A stretch of DNA of 64,000 nt from Acidobacteriota bacterium (GTDB lineage Bacteria > Acidobacteriota > Blastocatellia > Pyrinomonadales > Pyrinomonadaceae). The translations under genes and the position numbers were made by a program. The DNA lies in assembly GCA_020199835.1 (NCBI GenBank), contig JAIVJV010000004.1, forward strand, positions 1 through 64,000. Reading direction: 5' to 3'. Positions 3,479 to 10,712 of this stretch are shown here, one piece after another; position 1 is the first letter of the stretch, and every line of letters starts with the position of its first letter. Under the pieces are notes generated by a model that saw nothing but the letters and a program-made list of their open reading frames with translations, searched no databases and was not told the DNA's origin.

Positions 3479-3571
3479 GTTGACACCGATCACAGTACCC
3501 CAATCTACACGCTCGCCGCCTTGGGGGCGTCTGAGTGATGATTGTTCCGGGTTCAATGGAAGATCATAGCG
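3479..3571 (-). pseudogene. PASTA-domain remnant (copy of the 10356-10712 gene)
   Basis: On the reverse strand this stretch reads as the C-terminal part of a PASTA module nearly identical to the intact gene at 10356-10712: RYDLPLNPGTIITQTP in one frame, then QGGERVDWGTVIGV in the next. An extra C in a run of five breaks the frame between them. No start, membrane anchor or upstream half remains. PASTA domains bind peptidoglycan or muropeptides in other proteins. This copy cannot make a protein. Confidence 0.75.
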
Positions 3572-4481: not shown

Positions 4482-5399
4482 ATGAAAACATTCATACATG
4501 CAACGACTTGGATCATTTTCGTCCTTGCTGTTATGGGCTGTAAGCTTTCAAACATTGAACAAAGTAGGGCTGAACATGATTCGCGAGCTTCCATCACACC
4601 TACCCCCGTGGCGTCCCCTCAAAACTCCGCTTCTGATATTTCGTCTCTTGATGAAGGTGTCGTTTTACGATTTAAGGTTGAAACGAGTCGAACTTTGAAA
4701 CCAAGAATCATCGGCGAGACTAATCTTCCTGATGGAACTGAACTAATGGTTTCTCTGGATAGCAAATCCGTTAACTACAATGGCTCAGATAATACAACCG
4801 TCAATGGAGGACGCTTTCAGAGTGCCGAGTTTTCTTCAAACTATAATAATCTTAAGGCGGGACAGTATGTTGCTGAAGTTGTTATGCCAATACCCGCCGT
4901 ACAACCTCCTTCCGTGCGTGCCATAATTGGTGAAAACGGAGAAAAGCTCAAAGGTGCACTTGTTAAGCGAGAGGATGATTCTCCTTTGGGTTTATCAGTG
5001 CGTGTCGAGCAGCCATTCCAGCTTAAATCAGATGGAACGGTTGTTCTCGCGATAAATCAATCAGAGCTCGCAAACGCCGAAAAGAAAGCTATCGAAGTGC
5101 TGAAAGCATTAAAGAATCTTGAGCAGCAGGGTAGAAACATGGAGGCGCTCAGGAGTAAGGATAATCTGGATAATCTTAGACAATGTGGCGATTTGATGAG
5201 AGAGCGTCAGAGAATCGCCGATGAATTACGCACAAAGGCTGAATCAATTATCCAACCATATACAACCTATCTTACGCCCGCCGCTATTGAAGTGAAGTTA
5301 TGTGTATCCTGTTCTTCAGCAGCAATGGATAAGTGTAATAGAGCCAGATCATTACTCGACGAGGCAGAAAGTCGGGTAAAAGTGAGTCGAAGTAGGTGA
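4482..5399 (+). CDS. Predicted outer/inner membrane lipoprotein, unknown function
   Basis: The 305-residue product begins with a type II signal peptide: MKTFIHATTW, a hydrophobic core, then VMGC with the lipobox cysteine at residue 20. A Ser/Thr/Pro-rich linker (about 33-50) leads to a beta-rich domain (60-190) with a SLDEGVVLRFKVET start. A helical, charged coiled-coil-like segment follows (195-265), and the tail has four cysteines (VKLCVSCSS, DKCNR and the QCGDLM region). GAGGAAAG seven bases before the ATG is a fair ribosome binding site. The stop overlaps a GTG of the next frame, so the two genes are probably co-transcribed. No family is recognised. The Cys cluster could form disulfides in the periplasm. 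Confidence 0.75.
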   Translation: MKTFIHATTWIIFVLAVMGCKLSNIEQSRAEHDSRASITPTPVASPQNSASDISSLDEGVVLRFKVETSRTLKPRIIGETNLPDGTELMVSLDSKSVNYNGSDNTTVNGGRFQSAEFSSNYNNLKAGQYVAEVVMPIPAVQPPSVRAIIGENGEKLKGALVKREDDSPLGLSVRVEQPFQLKSDGTVVLAINQSELANAEKKAIEVLKALKNLEQQGRNMEALRSKDNLDNLRQCGDLMRERQRIADELRTKAESIIQPYTTYLTPAAIEVKLCVSCSSAAMDKCNRARSLLDEAESRVKVSRSR

Positions 5400-5425
5400 G
5401 TTTGAATCAAGGCGAAAGCCAAACA

Positions 5426-6190
5426 ATGAACATCGATAGAAATAACTTCGTCACGGATGAAGCGCTTCTGAACCGGGAGCATGCGCTGCGATCGAGCACG
5501 TTTGCAAAGAGGAATGCATTCACCAGTGACAATGCGAGGCGGCATTTCAACGAGGGATTTGTCCGTCGTCACTACATGTTGCAGTCGAGTCGGCTCTTCC
5601 TGTGCCAGCATTGTAACCCAAGTCGCAAGGAACCACTCTCCCCTTACGAAGCAACTGATTGCGCAATACATGTGAATGCATATTATCTTAATCTCCGTGG
5701 AGCGTTGGACAACCTTGCGTGGGTCCTACAGTACGAATGGCAGCTTCTGGCTGGTGTCCGGGAAGACGGCGGGCGTAGTAGACTGAGGTGCAATCTATTT
5801 GATCAAAGATTCCTTACGGCTCTGAAATCACAATATGCTGCATTGGCGTCCATGCTCGATGAGCACGGGAGCTGGGCAAGAGATTTTGCCGAGCTGCGAG
5901 ATCCAGCGGCCCATCGCGTTCCAATCTATGTCCCGCCTTCAGTCATCACGTCTCAAGAGCAGATGGACAAATTCCGTATCATTGAGGCGCAAGCAGACGT
6001 CGCTCCCTCTGAGCGAGGTGGTAGGACCCTCAGTGAAATTTACCGTGAGGCTCAAGCAGTTGCAGACTTCATGCCAGTCATGGTCCTATCTACTCCGCAA
6101 GGTTTAGTAATTCGCCCGATCAGCGAGCAGGTACGGTCCGATCACGACAGGTATCTCACAATTGCCAGGGCAATCGTCGATACGTTGTGA
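5426..6190 (+). CDS. HEPN-like protein (R-x4-H motif), unknown target
   Basis: A 254-residue cytoplasmic protein. The helical centre (residues ~83-110, YYLNLRGALDNLAWVLQYE) and the motif RDPAAH at residues 158-163, followed by RVPIYVPP, match the pattern of HEPN-superfamily proteins, in which an R-x4-6-H motif can form an RNase active site. An early CxxC (CQHC) is also present. HEPN proteins act in toxin-antitoxin, abortive infection and RNA-processing roles. Which applies here is unknown. An upstream GTG at 5396 overlaps the lipoprotein stop, but the ATG at 5426 is the more likely start. The gene lies inside the repeat-flanked accessory block. Confidence 0.6.
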   Translation: MNIDRNNFVTDEALLNREHALRSSTFAKRNAFTSDNARRHFNEGFVRRHYMLQSSRLFLCQHCNPSRKEPLSPYEATDCAIHVNAYYLNLRGALDNLAWVLQYEWQLLAGVREDGGRSRLRCNLFDQRFLTALKSQYAALASMLDEHGSWARDFAELRDPAAHRVPIYVPPSVITSQEQMDKFRIIEAQADVAPSERGGRTLSEIYREAQAVADFMPVMVLSTPQGLVIRPISEQVRSDHDRYLTIARAIVDTL

Positions 6191-6591: not shown

Positions 6592-6626
6592 TTGACAAGT
6601 TTAACGTGTTCAACCTATAGTTTAAC
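6592..6626 (+). promoter_or_regulatory. Sigma70-type promoter with three GTTYAAC repeats
   Basis: A consensus -35 box TTGACA (6592-6597) and a TATAGT -10 box (6616-6621) are 18 bp apart, giving a start of transcription near 6628 and a leader of about 205 bases for the operon that begins at 6833. Three copies of GTT(T/C)AAC lie at 6599-6605, 6608-6614 and 6620-6626, inside the spacer and over the -10 box. A protein bound there would block RNA polymerase, so this looks like a repressor-controlled promoter. Confidence 0.65.
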
Positions 6627-6832
6627 TCAGAGACGCTTACCTCAACTGTCTCGGCGTCTTGTCCTTAGTGGCAGGTGATGCTTTGAACCGTGCTACATAG
6701 AAAAAGTAACAACTGAAACCGGCACTCGTTCGCGATTTCTTTTTGGGTTGAGACCACCTTCGCGAATTGATTTCTTAACTTCCCTGCACAGACCGAAGGA
6801 GCGTTCGTTCCTGCCCAAGTTGGGAGAACTTT

Positions 6833-7513
6833 TTGGACATAAGCGCTTTAGTAATTCGCATTATTTTTCTCCTGTTACCCGGCGCTGTAGCGGCAAGCAT
6901 CTATTGGAAGATGAAGGGGAGGGCTACCCGGAAAGACTGGGAAGACTTTCTTGAGGTAATCGTGTTCTCATTATTTAGCTACGCCGTCTACGCCTCAATT
7001 GTCCATTTGATAAACTGGAACTGGAGTGCAGGAGTTCAATTCACGGCCTTCGATGCTTTCTTTGACGATAGAGTAGCAGTCAGATGGCAGGATATATTTT
7101 TCTCGTCTTTGGCAGGGGTGTGCGTTGCTCTGATAGCTTCCTATTCATATCAATTCAAAATAATAAATAAGTTCGGTAAGTTGGTCGGAGCCACACAAAG
7201 ATTTGGCGACGAAGATGTGTGGGACTTTGTACATCGCAGCCCCGATGTGAGAGGCAGTTGGGTCATCGTCCGGGATCACAAACTAAACTTATATTACACG
7301 TGCTGGATACAAGCCTTTTCTGATTCCGGCAAGGAACGTGAATTACTGTTGAGAGAAGTCGATGTTTATGATGATGCGTCGGCAGAATGGCGGTACAGTA
7401 CGCCAGTAATGTACCTGTCCCGAAAACAGGACGAGTTGACTATCGAAATACTGTCTGTGCCAGATCAGAATGAACTGACTACGGAACCAAGAGAAACTGG
7501 TCCAGAAACGTAA
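6833..7513 (+). CDS. DUF6338-like membrane protein
   Basis: The 226-residue product starts at a TTG with GGGAGA six bases before it. Three hydrophobic segments occupy the N-terminal half (about residues 4-24, 42-60 and 88-108). A soluble C-terminal domain of about 110 residues follows. The layout fits the DUF6338 family as I know it: hydrophobic start with LLPGAVAASIYWK, then a WDFVHRS-x-GSWVIVRDHK beta domain with CWIQAFSDSGKERELLLREVDVY. Its biochemical role is unknown. It is the first gene of a tightly packed operon with three tiny genes directly behind it (14 bp gap). Confidence 0.65.
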   Translation: MDISALVIRIIFLLLPGAVAASIYWKMKGRATRKDWEDFLEVIVFSLFSYAVYASIVHLINWNWSAGVQFTAFDAFFDDRVAVRWQDIFFSSLAGVCVALIASYSYQFKIINKFGKLVGATQRFGDEDVWDFVHRSPDVRGSWVIVRDHKLNLYYTCWIQAFSDSGKERELLLREVDVYDDASAEWRYSTPVMYLSRKQDELTIEILSVPDQNELTTEPRETGPET

Positions 7514-7527
7514 AAGGAGATTACACA

Positions 7528-7677
7528 TTGGGAAGACGAGCCAGTAATCAATCGAGGAGCGGGCGCGGTCAATTTGGTGAAGAAGGACGCAAACCATCAA
7601 CGCCGAAACCGACTTCACCACCGCCCTCGCAACGAGTAACATCGCAACCAAAGTCCGACAAATCGAAAGGAGAGTGA
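7528..7677 (+). CDS. Tiny disordered Pro/Ser/Gly-rich protein 1 (49 aa)
   Basis: A TTG start sits eight bases after AAAGGAGA. The product is strongly basic and low-complexity, rich in Ser, Pro, Gly, Arg and Lys (GRRASNQSRSGRGQF, then KPSTPKPTSPPPSQ), with no hydrophobic stretch, and is expected to be intrinsically disordered. It is the first of three consecutive tiny genes of similar composition, all with ribosome binding sites or coupled starts. This argues they are real. Its stop lies one base before the ATG of the next gene. No homologue is recognised. Confidence 0.6.
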   Translation: MGRRASNQSRSGRGQFGEEGRKPSTPKPTSPPPSQRVTSQPKSDKSKGE

Positions 7678-7678
7678 T

Positions 7679-7840
7679 ATGGCAAATCGTGGTATCGGTG
7701 GTCTAAGTGATCGCGTTTCGCGTCCGACAGAACGTGAGGGGCAAAGAACTGAAGTTAATCCGCGGCCTTCATCGCAAAAGCCGAGTGGGGCACCGCCGGC
7801 GCAAAAAACAGGGGGCTCTTCAAAGGGCGGTGGAAAATGA
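7679..7840 (+). CDS. Tiny disordered Pro/Ser/Gly-rich protein 2 (53 aa)
   Basis: The ATG follows AAAGGAGA by five bases. The N-terminus (MANRGIGGLSDRVSRP) could form a short helix. The rest is disordered (PRPSSQKPSGAPPAQKTGG) and ends in a Gly-rich tail, SSKGGGK. The ATG of the third tiny gene overlaps its stop (ATGA), so translation is coupled. Glycine-ending tails are a feature of small protein modifiers such as Pup and UBact, but the last residues here do not match those families, so no function is assigned. Confidence 0.6.
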   Translation: MANRGIGGLSDRVSRPTEREGQRTEVNPRPSSQKPSGAPPAQKTGGSSKGGGK

Positions 7841-8004
7841 CGTGCAAAGATGTATCACGCGTTCCGATAAAAGAGGGACATCAAAAGGGAAACACTAATC
7901 CACCTCCAAGAACTCCCAAACCTGATGTGTCGCCCCCCTCACAAGGCCGACCCTCGTCTCCAACTGGTCAGCCGCCAGCAGGTGGCTCCTCCGATTCTCG
8001 GTAG
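7837..8004 (+). CDS. Tiny disordered Pro/Ser/Gly-rich protein 3 (55 aa)
   Basis: It starts at the ATGA overlap with the preceding gene. The composition is again Pro/Ser/Gly/Gln-rich (NPPPRTPKPDVSPPSQG, then GQPPAGGSSDSR), and one cysteine is at residue 3. The protein is expected to be disordered and to lack a signal peptide. Similar composition but different sequence from the two genes before it suggests paralogous or functionally parallel polypeptides. The next gene starts 19 bp downstream. Confidence 0.6.
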   Translation: MTCKDVSRVPIKEGHQKGNTNPPPRTPKPDVSPPSQGRPSSPTGQPPAGGSSDSR

Positions 8005-8023
8005 TGATGGGCGATGAATTAGA

Positions 8024-8998
8024 ATGACCCTCCATCTTACTCAAGTCTCTAACCTCTACACTCTACAGGTTGGAGACCGTCTCATCTCCGGGCGCATAAA
8101 CGACCCGCTGGCTAACAAACAAATTATCTGCTGGGCACGTGACGCTATAGTGACGTTAGGCTATAGCGGCCTCGCGTATGACATGGATAACTCCGATAGA
8201 TCAAACTCCACCGACGAATGGATAACATCGAGATTGTTGGGTGCTGCGATTCCTCGCGGTCGTGACGGGATCAGACCAGTGACTTTCGGTGGCATTGATA
8301 ACCACCGCTGGATGGACATCGGCGAGTCGATCCAAACTCTCAAGAAGGAGTTGCAACGGTCATTTGAAAACTTGCCCAAGCGTCTAGCCGACTATCCATT
8401 TGAGTTGACTATCGCAGGTTGGCACATGCCTAGTCGAAAGCGCATTCGTCCTTTTGTAGCCGAAATTCGAAAACAGTTGAATGAGAGGTCAGTTAAGGTG
8501 GAGTTTCCGATGCGCGGCCGTTGCTTCGGGAATGGTTTCGCCGTCTTAGCTACTCCCGGCGGTTATCTGACGAAGCCTGAAGAAACCGAGCTGCGCATAT
8601 TCTTACGCTCAGGTGAGTTTTCACCAAGAGAGCGAGCCGAAAAAGCGGAAGAAAAACTGGTGAAAACCATCCGATCAGTCGCGACGAGAGAACCACTGAG
8701 AATAGGATCGCACTGCATGTCAGTTATGCTTCCACCACCGACCAGCGGCGCTGCCATTCGAGTTTGCTTTCATCCCGCGACCGAACATCGAGCGGTGTTT
8801 CGAAGCAGTGCGCGCCAATGGGAATCCCCTGTAGCGTATACACCCTGGGTAATAGGTCGAGGGCGATTCCTAGCGCCCTCAGTCATTGCTGGTGCGGGGA
8901 AGACATCTTATATAATGGGTCCCTTTACGATCGAGTTCAACGGGCCGACCGCTGGACGCTTTTCGTTTATTGGTGCACAGTCGAGAACCTATAAATAG
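8024..8998 (+). CDS. Predicted Ntn-hydrolase-like (proteasome-fold) protein
   Basis: A 324-residue protein starting MTLHLTQVSNLYTL, then QVGDRLISG and IICWARDAIVTLGYSGLAYD. This pattern (Thr at residue 2, early beta strand, DR followed by a turn, then a second strand with GYSG) resembles the start of proteasome-type Ntn-hydrolases, where a processed N-terminal Thr is the nucleophile. This is inference from pattern, not a firm family call. The C-terminal half (about residues 160-320) is a separate domain without recognised motifs. There is no signal peptide. It follows three disordered tiny proteins in the same operon, which makes a substrate or cofactor relationship conceivable. Confidence 0.5.
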   Translation: MTLHLTQVSNLYTLQVGDRLISGRINDPLANKQIICWARDAIVTLGYSGLAYDMDNSDRSNSTDEWITSRLLGAAIPRGRDGIRPVTFGGIDNHRWMDIGESIQTLKKELQRSFENLPKRLADYPFELTIAGWHMPSRKRIRPFVAEIRKQLNERSVKVEFPMRGRCFGNGFAVLATPGGYLTKPEETELRIFLRSGEFSPRERAEKAEEKLVKTIRSVATREPLRIGSHCMSVMLPPPTSGAAIRVCFHPATEHRAVFRSSARQWESPVAYTPWVIGRGRFLAPSVIAGAGKTSYIMGPFTIEFNGPTAGRFSFIGAQSRTYK

Positions 8999-9060
8999 TC
9001 AATCACGCTCGAACCTGCGATCTCTCAAGATAATCGAACCTCAAATGCGGTCAATGCCTC

Positions 9061-10158
9061 ATGAGTCAACGAGAACGCCTCAGAGAACTTGCCTTAACGG
9101 TCAATGAAGGCTTGACCGCGTACATCGCCGTTCACAACGAAATCTTTGAAGAAGCAGCGACGGCCAAGAGCTTGCTTAAGAACCTCGCAGGAAAAGGTGT
9201 ACTTATGTCCAAGTTGCTTGAGGACTGCGAGGCGCTAGTGCCGTTATGGGATGACATCAGTGAAGAATTGGAGGACTTCAAGTCATCCGACTACTTACTC
9301 TTGTCCGAAGACGAAAGAGGTTTCTTCGACATCCTGTCTCGCTATGTCGAGGCTCTTCAAAAGACAGTCACCGCCCTCGTGGATCGTCAGCGGCTAATGA
9401 ACGAAGGAGCTAAAGGCGGACGAAATAATCCAATGACTTGGACCGCTCATCGGGAGAAAGAAGATCTCTATCAACAGGCTGTCAATGAATACATCGCTGT
9501 AGGTGAGAAATTGAATGAGGCTCGTTATGTAGTTTTTGGTGAACATTCAGAGACGACGGTGTCTCTGGATGCTCAGTGTGCATCAGCTTTCACAATCATA
9601 AGCAGAACGGTACGCGATGATGCTCACTGGCGGGCCTTCGGCTTTAAGAAGTGCCCGCACCGTGGCAAGATTTTCCAGGGACTGGTCCCTGCTGCAAAAC
9701 TTGAACGCGAAACCACGCTTCTTCGGGAGTTATGCGGCGCAAGCTTTGGCGCTATCTGTCGATGGACCGTAGAGCAAGACCAGTTTCCGCACCGGGAGGT
9801 CTTTATAGCCAAGCTGATCGAATACGTGATAGACGGCGTCGCTGAACCGCTTTGGCCCGTTTTTCGATTCGTCACTCGCCGAGACGCAATTGATTTCATT
9901 CAAAAAGCATGCGCTGACTATGTGCAAACTGACGATCGTGATCGCCCGCAAGTGTTTTTAAATCGCTGCGCGGAGCATATGGGACAACTAGTACCAAAGG
10001 CTTGGATAGTTGGCGCTGCGTGGCTCTTTTCTCATCCAAAGTCGTACGTGTTTAACACGGCCCTTTCACTGACGGATGCGGGGATCGCAAGTAATTACGA
10101 GAATGATATTGAACTCAATGACCACGAGTTCCTGACCATTGTTGAGAATATGCTTTGA
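9061..10158 (+). CDS. Unknown 365-aa helical protein, last gene of the operon
   Basis: No family is recognised. The first ~170 residues are helical and acidic (SKLLEDCEALVPLWDDISEEL, EDERGFFDILSRYVEAL), suggestive of a coiled-coil or four-helix bundle. The second half contains several Cys and Trp residues (KKCPHRGKIF, RELCGASFGAICRW) and an aromatic segment WIVGAAWLFSHPKSYVF. It lacks a signal peptide and obvious membrane spans. It lies 62 bp after the Ntn-like gene on the same strand and is probably expressed from the 6592 promoter. Confidence 0.6.
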   Translation: MSQRERLRELALTVNEGLTAYIAVHNEIFEEAATAKSLLKNLAGKGVLMSKLLEDCEALVPLWDDISEELEDFKSSDYLLLSEDERGFFDILSRYVEALQKTVTALVDRQRLMNEGAKGGRNNPMTWTAHREKEDLYQQAVNEYIAVGEKLNEARYVVFGEHSETTVSLDAQCASAFTIISRTVRDDAHWRAFGFKKCPHRGKIFQGLVPAAKLERETTLLRELCGASFGAICRWTVEQDQFPHREVFIAKLIEYVIDGVAEPLWPVFRFVTRRDAIDFIQKACADYVQTDDRDRPQVFLNRCAEHMGQLVPKAWIVGAAWLFSHPKSYVFNTALSLTDAGIASNYENDIELNDHEFLTIVENML

Positions 10159-10251
10159 AAAGGCGGTCAACTCAGGATGGCTAGCCACCATTTCTACTCG
10201 TTGAAAGGTGGAATCGGCTTGCCAAACTAGAGCGCTGCTTGTAACCGTTGC

Positions 10252-10310
10252 AAGAAACTGAGCATTTCTGCCGGTAGCGTTAGCAAAAAGTTGCGAAGAT
10301 TGTCCACTGT
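10252..10310 (+). repeat. Dispersed repeat A, copy 2
   Basis: This is the second copy of the 58-59 bp element at 2486-2543, in direct orientation. It begins 46 bp beyond the stop of the reverse-strand PASTA gene. Together with the PASTA remnant at 3479-3571 it brackets the accessory genes between 2.5 and 10.3 kb. Confidence 0.8.
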
Positions 10311-10355
10311 AGGCTGCCAATCGGTGAGGTGCTAATCTTGCGCAGGTTGGCTCCA

Positions 10356-10712
10356 TTAGCGCCGCCGATCGTCGGCGCTCAACGTGACTCCGATCACGGT
10401 GCCGCAATCTACACGCTCGCCGCCTTGAGGCGTCTGAGCGATGATTATTCCCGGCTCAAGCTGGAGGTCGTGCCGATTGGCAAGAACACGGATCTTGAGA
10501 TTCGCGTCGCGCACTTTGATTTGCGCTGTCTGGTAGGTCATGCCTACCAGCACGGGAACCGATGTTTGTGGTGGTCGTGAGAGTCGTTCGCGCCTAACTG
10601 ATATGGCAAGTGGCACCAGGGCGATTGCGGGCAGCACTACGAAACTGACAAACGCAATCGCAGTGAGAGTAGCTATTAGCAGCGGCTTCTTGCCACGGAT
10701 GCGATAGCCCAA
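10356..10712 (-). CDS. Membrane-anchored single-PASTA-domain protein
   Basis: A 118-residue product with one N-terminal transmembrane helix (about residues 11-36, LLIATLTAIAFVSFVVLPAI) followed by one PASTA domain. The domain reads VPVLVGMTYQTAQIKV, LKIRVLANRHDLQLEPG, IIIAQTPQGGERVDCGT, then VIGVTLS, matching the V-P-x-hydrophobic-x-G start and the I-x-x-Q-x-P-x-x-G core. PASTA domains bind peptidoglycan fragments or beta-lactams, usually in PknB-type kinases or PBPs. Here there is no partner domain. The start is a TTG and no better start was found before the upstream stop. Two ruined copies of the same module exist at 3479-3571 and near 15400-15527. Confidence 0.75.
   Translation of the reverse strand: MGYRIRGKKPLLIATLTAIAFVSFVVLPAIALVPLAISVRRERLSRPPQTSVPVLVGMTYQTAQIKVRDANLKIRVLANRHDLQLEPGIIIAQTPQGGERVDCGTVIGVTLSADDRRR

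Follow-up and report, generated by a model that had tools for sequence, protein, structure and literature searches.

A gene for a DUF6338 protein has been described together with small proline-rich proteins in Pseudomonas stutzeri, where Pstu14405_12030 (DUF6338) stands in a putative operon with three such proteins of less than 50 aa (PMC10433244). These proteins were seen in strain ATCC 14405 by digest-free mass spectrometry (44-114 spectra), and the authors reported them as not conserved beyond P. stutzeri and perhaps as de novo genes. In Pfam, PF19865 (DUF6338) is named only as a family of unknown function. Other described systems that bear on the locus studied here are the archaeal SmAP and eukaryotic Sm and LSm proteins, the membrane effector Csx23 of type III CRISPR (PMC11014256), and the IetAS, TIR-caspase, CBASS and Gabija defence operons.

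We analysed a locus in the window, i.e. the whole stretch of 64,000 nucleotides from an Acidobacteriota bacterium (contig JAIVJV010000004.1). The original prediction described here an operon of a DUF6338-like membrane protein, three consecutive tiny disordered proteins, an Ntn-hydrolase-like protein and a helical protein. Indeed, all six open reading frames exist where they had been placed, and the observation is confirmed:
6592..6621 (+), sigma-70-like promoter match (11 of 12) upstream of the DUF6338 gene
6833..7513 (+), DUF6338-type membrane protein, 226 aa, TTG start; predicted N-out, with three membrane helices and a cytoplasmic C-terminal Sm-like domain
7202..7453 (+), predicted Sm/LSm-fold domain (model residues 124-207)
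7528..7677 (+), tiny Pro-rich protein 1, 49 aa, TTG start; divergent copy
7679..7840 (+), tiny Pro-rich protein 2, 53 aa, with a Gly-rich tail
7837..8004 (+), tiny Pro-rich protein 3, 55 aa, the canonical family member (EGxxxKGxxNPxPxxPKPxxxPPxQ)
8024..8998 (+), 324-aa protein, possible but unproven Ntn-hydrolase (Thr2, Asp18, Lys32); passenger, not part of the conserved unit
9061..10158 (+), 365-aa protein without a Pfam match over cut-off; passenger

The spacing is also as described, with AGGAG before tiny gene 1, GGAG before tiny gene 2 and an ATGA stop-start overlap of tiny genes 2 and 3. The proline content of the three proteins is 14, 11 and 22%, respectively. For the promoter match, 3 such sites were found against 3.5 expected by chance, and the only terminator-like site lies inside the last gene. 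The 226-aa protein aligns with positions 11-195 of the 205 positions of PF19865 (E 1.1e-4), but its score of 22.2 bits is below the cut-off of 26.5. We therefore call it DUF6338-type, although four of its six plasmid relatives are annotated as 'DUF6338 family protein'.

To test whether the tiny genes recur with the DUF6338 gene, we collected 60 DUF6338-type loci (48 genome contigs, 6 viral contigs and 6 plasmids) from many phyla; they are numbered here with the letter L. One contig (L050) ends inside the gene and was dropped. In the other 59 loci, an ORF of 42-125 aa follows directly. Since this count comes from a rule that takes the best ORF, it is not itself the test, and we used split-half HMMs instead. 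At 10 bits, these recognised 27 of 29 and 26 of 30 DUF6338 loci (53 of 59 together), against 0 of 193 control genes each. Simpler criteria were weaker: proline content alone was rejected as evidence because it picked out 53 of 59 DUF6338 loci but also 35 of 193 controls, and the loose and strict motifs were found in 52 and 40 of 59 loci against 10 and 1 of 193 controls. L003 is the same place as L038 and was left out of the 59, L106 (no intact DUF6338 gene annotated) was not counted, and L072 and L074 are identical copies. Short DUF6338 proteins were left out of the sets A2 and A4 (54 and 48 rows). The invariance of the GDE motif is partly built in, since the scan pattern contained it.

Among more distant DUF6338 genes, 7 of 9 phylum loci have a Pro-rich small ORF beside them, as judged by eye, whereas two (L013 and L014) lack a tiny gene. 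In 9 of 11 plasmid/E. coli loci, this ORF carries the motif xG[YFWH]x[PK], against 0 of 220 controls, although only 11 of 59 loci in the family nearest the window have the motif. The number of tiny genes varies from one to three: three tiny HMM hits were found in L085, and three Pro-rich ORFs, by eye, in Acinetobacter (L098), as in the window and in P. stutzeri. In L009, L010 and L012, the tiny gene lies upstream, which is an unusual order for a regulator coupled by translation.

An HMM made from the tiny proteins of 59 other loci placed tiny gene 3 first in the six-frame translation of the window (E 2.8e-5), and it was still first without the 7 closest relatives (E 0.0039). Tiny protein 2 was weak in this search (E 0.38; HMM score 12.7 bits). 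When compared with 2000 composition shuffles, both proteins scored higher than all of them, so that these two belong to the family of tiny DUF6338 partners beyond composition. Tiny protein 1 was not recognised, as 1605 of 2000 shuffles scored as high, but it resembles tiny proteins 2 and 3 pairwise (10 and 6 of 2000 shuffles as good).

The tiny and DUF6338 sequences co-vary (Mantel r 0.637, 0 of 2000 permutations; n 56, with 3 of the 59 loci left out). The tiny genes showed dN/dS values of 0.16, 0.23 and 0.20 in the 3 of 9 gene pairs with usable dS. Of 10 locus pairs with a DUF6338 identity printed as 0.70 or more, 8 share no flanking ORF, showing that the pair is the mobile unit. This unit occurs on plasmids, in a Vibrio stretch between DUF3265 genes and in viral contigs, and the genes overlap in 45 of 59 loci. 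These features would fit a toxin-antitoxin pair for plasmid or island maintenance, with DUF6338 as the toxin and the tiny proteins as antitoxins. However, several tandem tiny genes and chromosomal retention are unusual for an addiction pair, and the adjacency to signalling defence genes is not explained. We regard this possibility as unlikely.

The original prediction had built the unit round the proteolysis-like enzyme, and this was not supported. Neither the 324-aa nor the 365-aa protein has a relative in any DUF6338 locus collected at that stage. Searches with the 324-aa protein returned only itself in 97 related genomes, and nothing in the genome contigs, plasmids, phages and viral contigs. 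In the phylum sample (limit E 0.1), nothing but itself was found at E 0.001; the 47 other genomes scored 0.00125 or worse with short pieces, often with stops, which we take as chance. One true relative (38%) appeared only in a search of 162 genomes of the class; it stands in a sugar-transporter context without DUF6338 or tiny genes. A repeated phylum search with the alignment of these two sequences again found only the protein itself. For the 365-aa protein, two short relatives of about 50-60 residues were found in 396 genomes, without DUF6338 there, and no solved relative scored below E 0.97. The tiny genes are thus conserved with DUF6338 and not with the enzyme.

The fold of the 324-aa protein, which had been named as a point to check, is unproven. 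The protein had no Pfam match even at E 10, and the proteasome profile PF00227 found only another gene in the genome. A single-sequence AlphaFold model failed (pLDDT 33), and comparison of a two-sequence profile with HslV gave nothing (probability 0.1%), while a further hhalign run gave a different, also non-significant, hit; these attempts leave the Ntn fold undecided. The proteasome residues Thr1, Asp17 and Lys33 have possible counterparts in Thr2, Asp18 and Lys32, which are all kept in the one relative, but with only two sequences this does not settle the matter either way.

The idea that the tiny proteins are Pup/UBact-like tags worked on by this enzyme could draw on their small size and disorder, on the proteasome-like N-terminus of the neighbour and on an E1/JAB fusion gene next to the pair in Acinetobacter. 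It is not supported: 0 of 59 tiny proteins end in GG or GGx, those of the window end in KGE, GGK and DSR, and no Pup ligase (PF03136) was found in the 83%-complete genome. We consider it very unlikely. To summarize, the interpretation of the original prediction is partly supported, since the tiny genes do belong together and with the DUF6338 gene, recur beside it in other genomes and form an unusual arrangement.

We next examined the DUF6338-type protein. Its AlphaFold model (pLDDT 89.0) has three membrane helices and a domain with the N-terminal helix and five-stranded barrel of the Sm/LSm fold. In a VIA structure comparison, this domain matched the archaeal SmAP 1i4k with Z 10.3 and an rmsd of 1.8 over 71 aa, and Foldseek rows 1-35 were all Sm/LSm proteins or complexes (E 1.0e-3 to 8.0e-3). 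No sequence match to solved structures was found below E 0.14. Resemblance to MscS, which also has membrane helices followed by an Sm-like domain, was not tested, and the absence of MscS from the VIA list says nothing.

This fold raises the possibility of a membrane RNA hub, in which the Sm-like domain binds RNA in a ring and the disordered partners tune binding or cluster it, as a housekeeping or stress function unrelated to phage. PNPase upstream in L047/L055 and the S1-domain protein Tex downstream in L059 would agree with this. The Sm1 motif contacts RNA through an Asp and an Asn; the positions that match them by spacing are Ser163 and Glu170, invariant in 48 of 48 sequences each. This would speak against canonical uridine binding, but the mapping is our inference, made without a residue-level structural alignment, and does not decide whether the contact residues are present. 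Ring assembly and RNA binding were not assayed, as we predicted single chains only. The patchy distribution (9 of 396 genomes over cut-off) does not look like housekeeping, and we regard an RNA hub as unlikely.

The pair often sits beside anti-phage defence genes. IetA-IetS lies directly upstream in L039, from Anaerobacterium chartisolvens, and in L086; a ThsB-like TIR and a caspase were found in L097 and L028, GajA/GajB in L092, PLD_Helicase in L065, an oligonucleotide cyclase and, as annotated, SLATT in L105, and a ThiF+JAB fusion in L098. Several loci, however, lie beside housekeeping genes (PNPase, Tex, PheT, squalene-hopene cyclase), so that a general cell function is possible, and no control rate for defence genes near random genes was determined. 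Among the 109 nearest neighbours scanned, nearly all from the 210 selected, no Pfam family occurs more than 3 times. Neither the DUF6338 protein (at E 1) nor tiny proteins 2 and 3 matched a PADLOC model, the first tiny protein not having been submitted; absence from PADLOC does not exclude defence.

Some of these neighbours are peptidases, which suggests a protease-gated version, in which the tiny proteins are plugs or inhibitors that a neighbouring peptidase (IetS subtilase, caspase, JAB, perhaps the 324-aa protein) destroys on infection, releasing a DUF6338 membrane effector in the manner of bacterial gasdermins. IetS is 10-14 bp upstream in L039 and L086, and disordered chains are natural substrates. 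Yet most loci examined show no peptidase next to the pair, and the CD-NTase/SLATT and Gabija contexts have none. We made no enrichment test against a control, and a rough motif scan for peptidases missed the known subtilases and was not used. This version is unlikely in our view.

Our preferred explanation is a compact mobile module: a DUF6338-type inner-membrane protein carrying a cytoplasmic Sm-fold domain, plus one to three tiny intrinsically disordered proline-rich proteins made from the same message by overlapping or abutting genes. The computations show the conserved pairing, the predicted Sm fold, purifying selection in the three measurable pairs, joint inheritance, the exchange of genomic surroundings and the recurrent adjacency to phage-defence operons. 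It is only inferred that the tiny proteins are linear-motif ligands of the Sm-like domain, whose [DE]G-aromatic/KGG and PPxxP motifs would dock on the barrel or on a ring of barrels and set the state of the membrane protein; neither a complex nor a fold of the tiny proteins was modelled, and no functional data exist. The likeliest use would be as an accessory membrane effector with its own regulator or inhibitor, coupled to various infection sensors and acting by altering the membrane when the tiny proteins are removed, cleaved or displaced. In this view, the tiny gene of the window has been triplicated and the genes for the 324-aa and 365-aa proteins have been added behind it. We are nearly certain of the pairing and highly confident of the Sm fold; binding of the tiny proteins to the DUF6338 protein is somewhat more likely than not, a defence role only slightly so, and their action as inhibitors is less likely than not. 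The explanation as a whole is about as likely as not.

A more speculative and rather doubtful possibility is a so far unrecognised, cross-phylum immune effector, possibly a ring of membrane-anchored Sm-fold proteins whose helices line a pore, held silent by tiny proteins encoded at its stop codon and plugged as an interchangeable part into IetAS, TIR-caspase, CBASS-like, E1/JAB and Gabija-linked operons; where a peptidase is present, cutting the tiny proteins would be the trigger. The unit would explain a widespread family of unknown function and give a home to small Pro-rich proteins that annotation often leaves out. If the defence reading holds, it adds a transferable membrane effector with an unusual fold to several known immune systems, and the tiny proteins give a direct handle on how it is held in check.

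The original claim that no described system has this arrangement is nearly right. In text searches of an open-access library, no described system of this make-up was found, and DUF6338 itself occurred in one paper, the P. stutzeri study. Csx23 likewise has N-terminal membrane helices with a small cytoplasmic ligand-binding domain and acts in phage defence by membrane perturbation, but it is reported to have a novel fold that binds cA4 and to be a tetramer, and we saw no mention of a tiny partner or an Sm fold. Compared with archaeal SmAP and eukaryotic Sm and LSm proteins, the predicted Sm-like domain is attached to three membrane helices. The IetAS, TIR-caspase, CBASS and Gabija operons stand beside the pair in the loci named above, but the pair is an extra that moves independently. 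The P. stutzeri operon has the same make-up of a DUF6338 gene and three small proline-rich proteins; in contrast to the proposal that these are unconserved and perhaps de novo, we find the pairing in many phyla, with a shared motif, a predicted Sm fold for DUF6338 and defence neighbours.

The six ORFs were found at the positions given for them in the original prediction, so this observation held. The block from about 2.5 to 10.2 kb has a lower GC content (0.48-0.51) than the next 2-kb windows on the right (0.51-0.65) and the left side (0.55), and it is bracketed by direct repeats. This looks like an acquired stretch in the genome, which is an 83%-complete assembly of 4.87 Mb. In addition to the six ORFs, the following features of the window were recorded:

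2465-2548 and 10231-10315: first pair of direct repeats bracketing the low-GC block
3481-3526 and 10385-10430: second pair of direct repeats, encoding part of a PASTA-like sequence (GGERVDxGTVIGV) that recurs near 15.5 kb
4482-6190: a 305-aa lipoprotein-like ORF (VMGCKLSN near its start) overlapping the start of a 264-aa ORF, neither with a Pfam match over cut-off
8008-8028: a six-codon ORF (MGDELE) ending over the start codon of the gene for the 324-aa protein, which may be due to chance

The 226-aa membrane protein matched PF19865 (DUF6338) with an E value of 1.1e-4, which is under the curated cut-off. Its plasmid relatives in Methylobacterium, Agrobacterium, Acidiphilium and Vibrio are annotated as DUF6338, whereas those in Oceanimonas and Citrobacter are unnamed. 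To predict its structure, we used an alignment of 48 relatives and obtained an AlphaFold model with a mean pLDDT of 89.0 and a pTM of 0.74, consisting of helices 3-28, 35-64 and 85-107 (hydrophobicity maxima 2.33, 2.05 and 1.70), a short helix 129-135 and then five strands. In a Foldseek search with this model, rows 1-35 were all Sm/LSm proteins or complexes, the best at an E value of 1.0e-3, and a VIA comparison gave a Z score of 10.3 and an rmsd of 1.8 over 71 residues to the archaeal SmAP 1i4k. From the charge distribution, we infer that the first loop and the C-terminal part are cytoplasmic. Judged by spacing, which is our inferred mapping, Ser163 and Glu170 (48 of 48 each) occupy the places of the Sm1 Asp and Asn, and R197 (34 of 48) that of the Sm2 Arg. 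Tyr50, Ser163, Glu170 and Tyr194 are invariant; so is Gly125-Glu127, but these residues were required by the pattern used to scan for relatives.

To find out whether the tiny genes accompany the DUF6338 gene elsewhere, we collected 48 genome loci, 6 viral-contig loci and 6 plasmid loci. One of them (L050) ends inside the gene. In all 59 others, an ORF of 42-125 aa starts from 58 nt before to 45 nt after the DUF6338 stop, and 45 of them overlap it. The 59 encoded proteins have a median length of 57 aa, 16% Pro and 17% Lys+Arg, and none contains Cys. Their consensus is a short [E/D/N]G segment, K-G-G-x-N and a Pro-rich tail. In the Acidobacteria contig L038, the tiny gene (1240-1617) is a 125-aa ORF that looks like two tiny units fused. 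Split-half HMMs recognized 27 of 29 and 26 of 30 held-out loci at 10 bits or more, and 0 of 193 control genes in both halves. When the window was searched in six frames with an HMM of all 59, its third tiny gene was the first hit (E 2.8e-5), and it was still first without the seven closest relatives (E 0.0039). The second tiny gene is weaker (12.7 bits as a protein; 0 of 2000 shuffles as good), whereas the first is not recognized but resembles the other two.

DUF6338 identity and tiny-protein identity correlate (Mantel r 0.637, n 56, 0 of 2000 permutations), and the three of nine tiny-gene pairs that gave usable values had dN/dS ratios of 0.16, 0.23 and 0.20; in the other six pairs dS was saturated. 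Of ten locus pairs with a DUF6338 identity of 0.70 or more as printed, eight share no other ORF, and the two that do (L047/L055 and L072/L074) are near-identical sites. The distribution is patchy: PF19865 was found over cut-off in 9 of 396 genomes of the phylum sample, and relatives in 2 of 97. The copy number of the tiny genes varies, with three HMM hits in locus L085, two plausible ones in L060 and L065, and three Pro-rich ORFs in the Acinetobacter locus L098. In the Vibrio plasmid locus L026 (2872-3908), the DUF6338-tiny pair lies between two DUF3265 genes, as integron cassettes do.

We then looked at the wider family. Among nine more distant DUF6338 loci of the phylum, inspected by eye, seven have a Pro-rich small ORF beside the gene, either downstream (L002, L008, L011 and L015) or upstream (L009, L010 and L012); L013 and L014 do not. 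Among 11 plasmid and E. coli loci, 9 carry an xG[YFWH]x[PK] motif in a downstream small Pro-rich ORF, against 0 of 220 controls, and the two without it (L092 and L093) have ORFs of 90-91 aa ending in GPKIPPMKK.

The neighbouring genes include several associated with phage defence. IetA and IetS stand directly upstream of the pair in loci L039 and L086 (PADLOC E 3.1e-129 or better for the best models). ThsB-like TIR and caspase genes flank the pair in Proteus (L097, with tnsD/tnsE) and Citrobacter (L028), and an oligonucleotide cyclase and an annotated SLATT gene lie upstream in Mesorhizobium (L105). In A. soli (L098), an E1/JAB fusion lies 11 bp upstream, behind a WYL regulator and a metallohydrolase; the A. 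soli plasmid stretch L115 (2165-7754) reads WYL regulator, 104-aa protein, metallohydrolase, 312-aa protein, E1/JAB fusion, DUF6338 and tiny genes, that is, a ubiquitin-like-conjugation-type operon ending in the DUF6338 unit. GajA/GajB lie nearby in E. coli (L092), and a PLD_Helicase overlaps the DUF6338 gene start in L065. On an A. baumannii plasmid (L103, 2471-4428), the pair faces a DUF4062 gene, and DUF4062 proteins are reported in a 2026 preprint as antiphage NADases (PMC13174449). However, PNPase, Tex, PheT and squalene-hopene cyclase also occur as neighbours, no Pfam family was found in more than 3 of 109 neighbours, and the rate of defence genes was not compared with a control. A defence link is thus likely, but not shown.

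The interpretation offered in the original prediction was supported only in part. Conservation of the tiny genes beside homologues of the larger genes had been named in advance as a point on which it could fail, and the tiny genes do recur beside the DUF6338 gene, but neither the 324-aa nor the 365-aa protein had a relative in the DUF6338 loci collected at the time of that comparison. The 324-aa protein had been proposed to resemble proteasome-type Ntn-hydrolases at its start (Thr2). Its only clear relative (38%; L111, 3816-4790), which lies between parts of what look like sugar ABC-transporter genes, keeps Thr2, Asp18 and the Asn-Lys at 31-32, with Lys in that relative at the proteasome spacing. 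No profile comparison supports the assignment, nor does structure prediction, which had been suggested beforehand as a way of examining the fold, or comparison with HslV.

Taken together, our analysis demonstrated the conserved pairing, the predicted fold of the membrane protein, the joint inheritance of the two genes, selection on the tiny genes and the mobility of the unit. From this we infer that the tiny proteins bind the Sm-like domain and govern it, whereas a ring or pore, inhibition by the tiny proteins and triggering by a protease are speculative.

Three small Pro-rich proteins encoded in a putative operon with a DUF6338 gene in P. stutzeri have been detected by mass spectrometry and reported as not conserved beyond P. 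stutzeri and perhaps de novo genes (PMC10433244). The pairing found here argues against the de novo reading for the arrangement as a whole, although the P. stutzeri sequences themselves were not seen by us. The nearest functional analogue that we encountered is Csx23 (PMC11014256), which likewise has membrane helices plus a small cytoplasmic domain, but the fold of this domain is a different, novel one.
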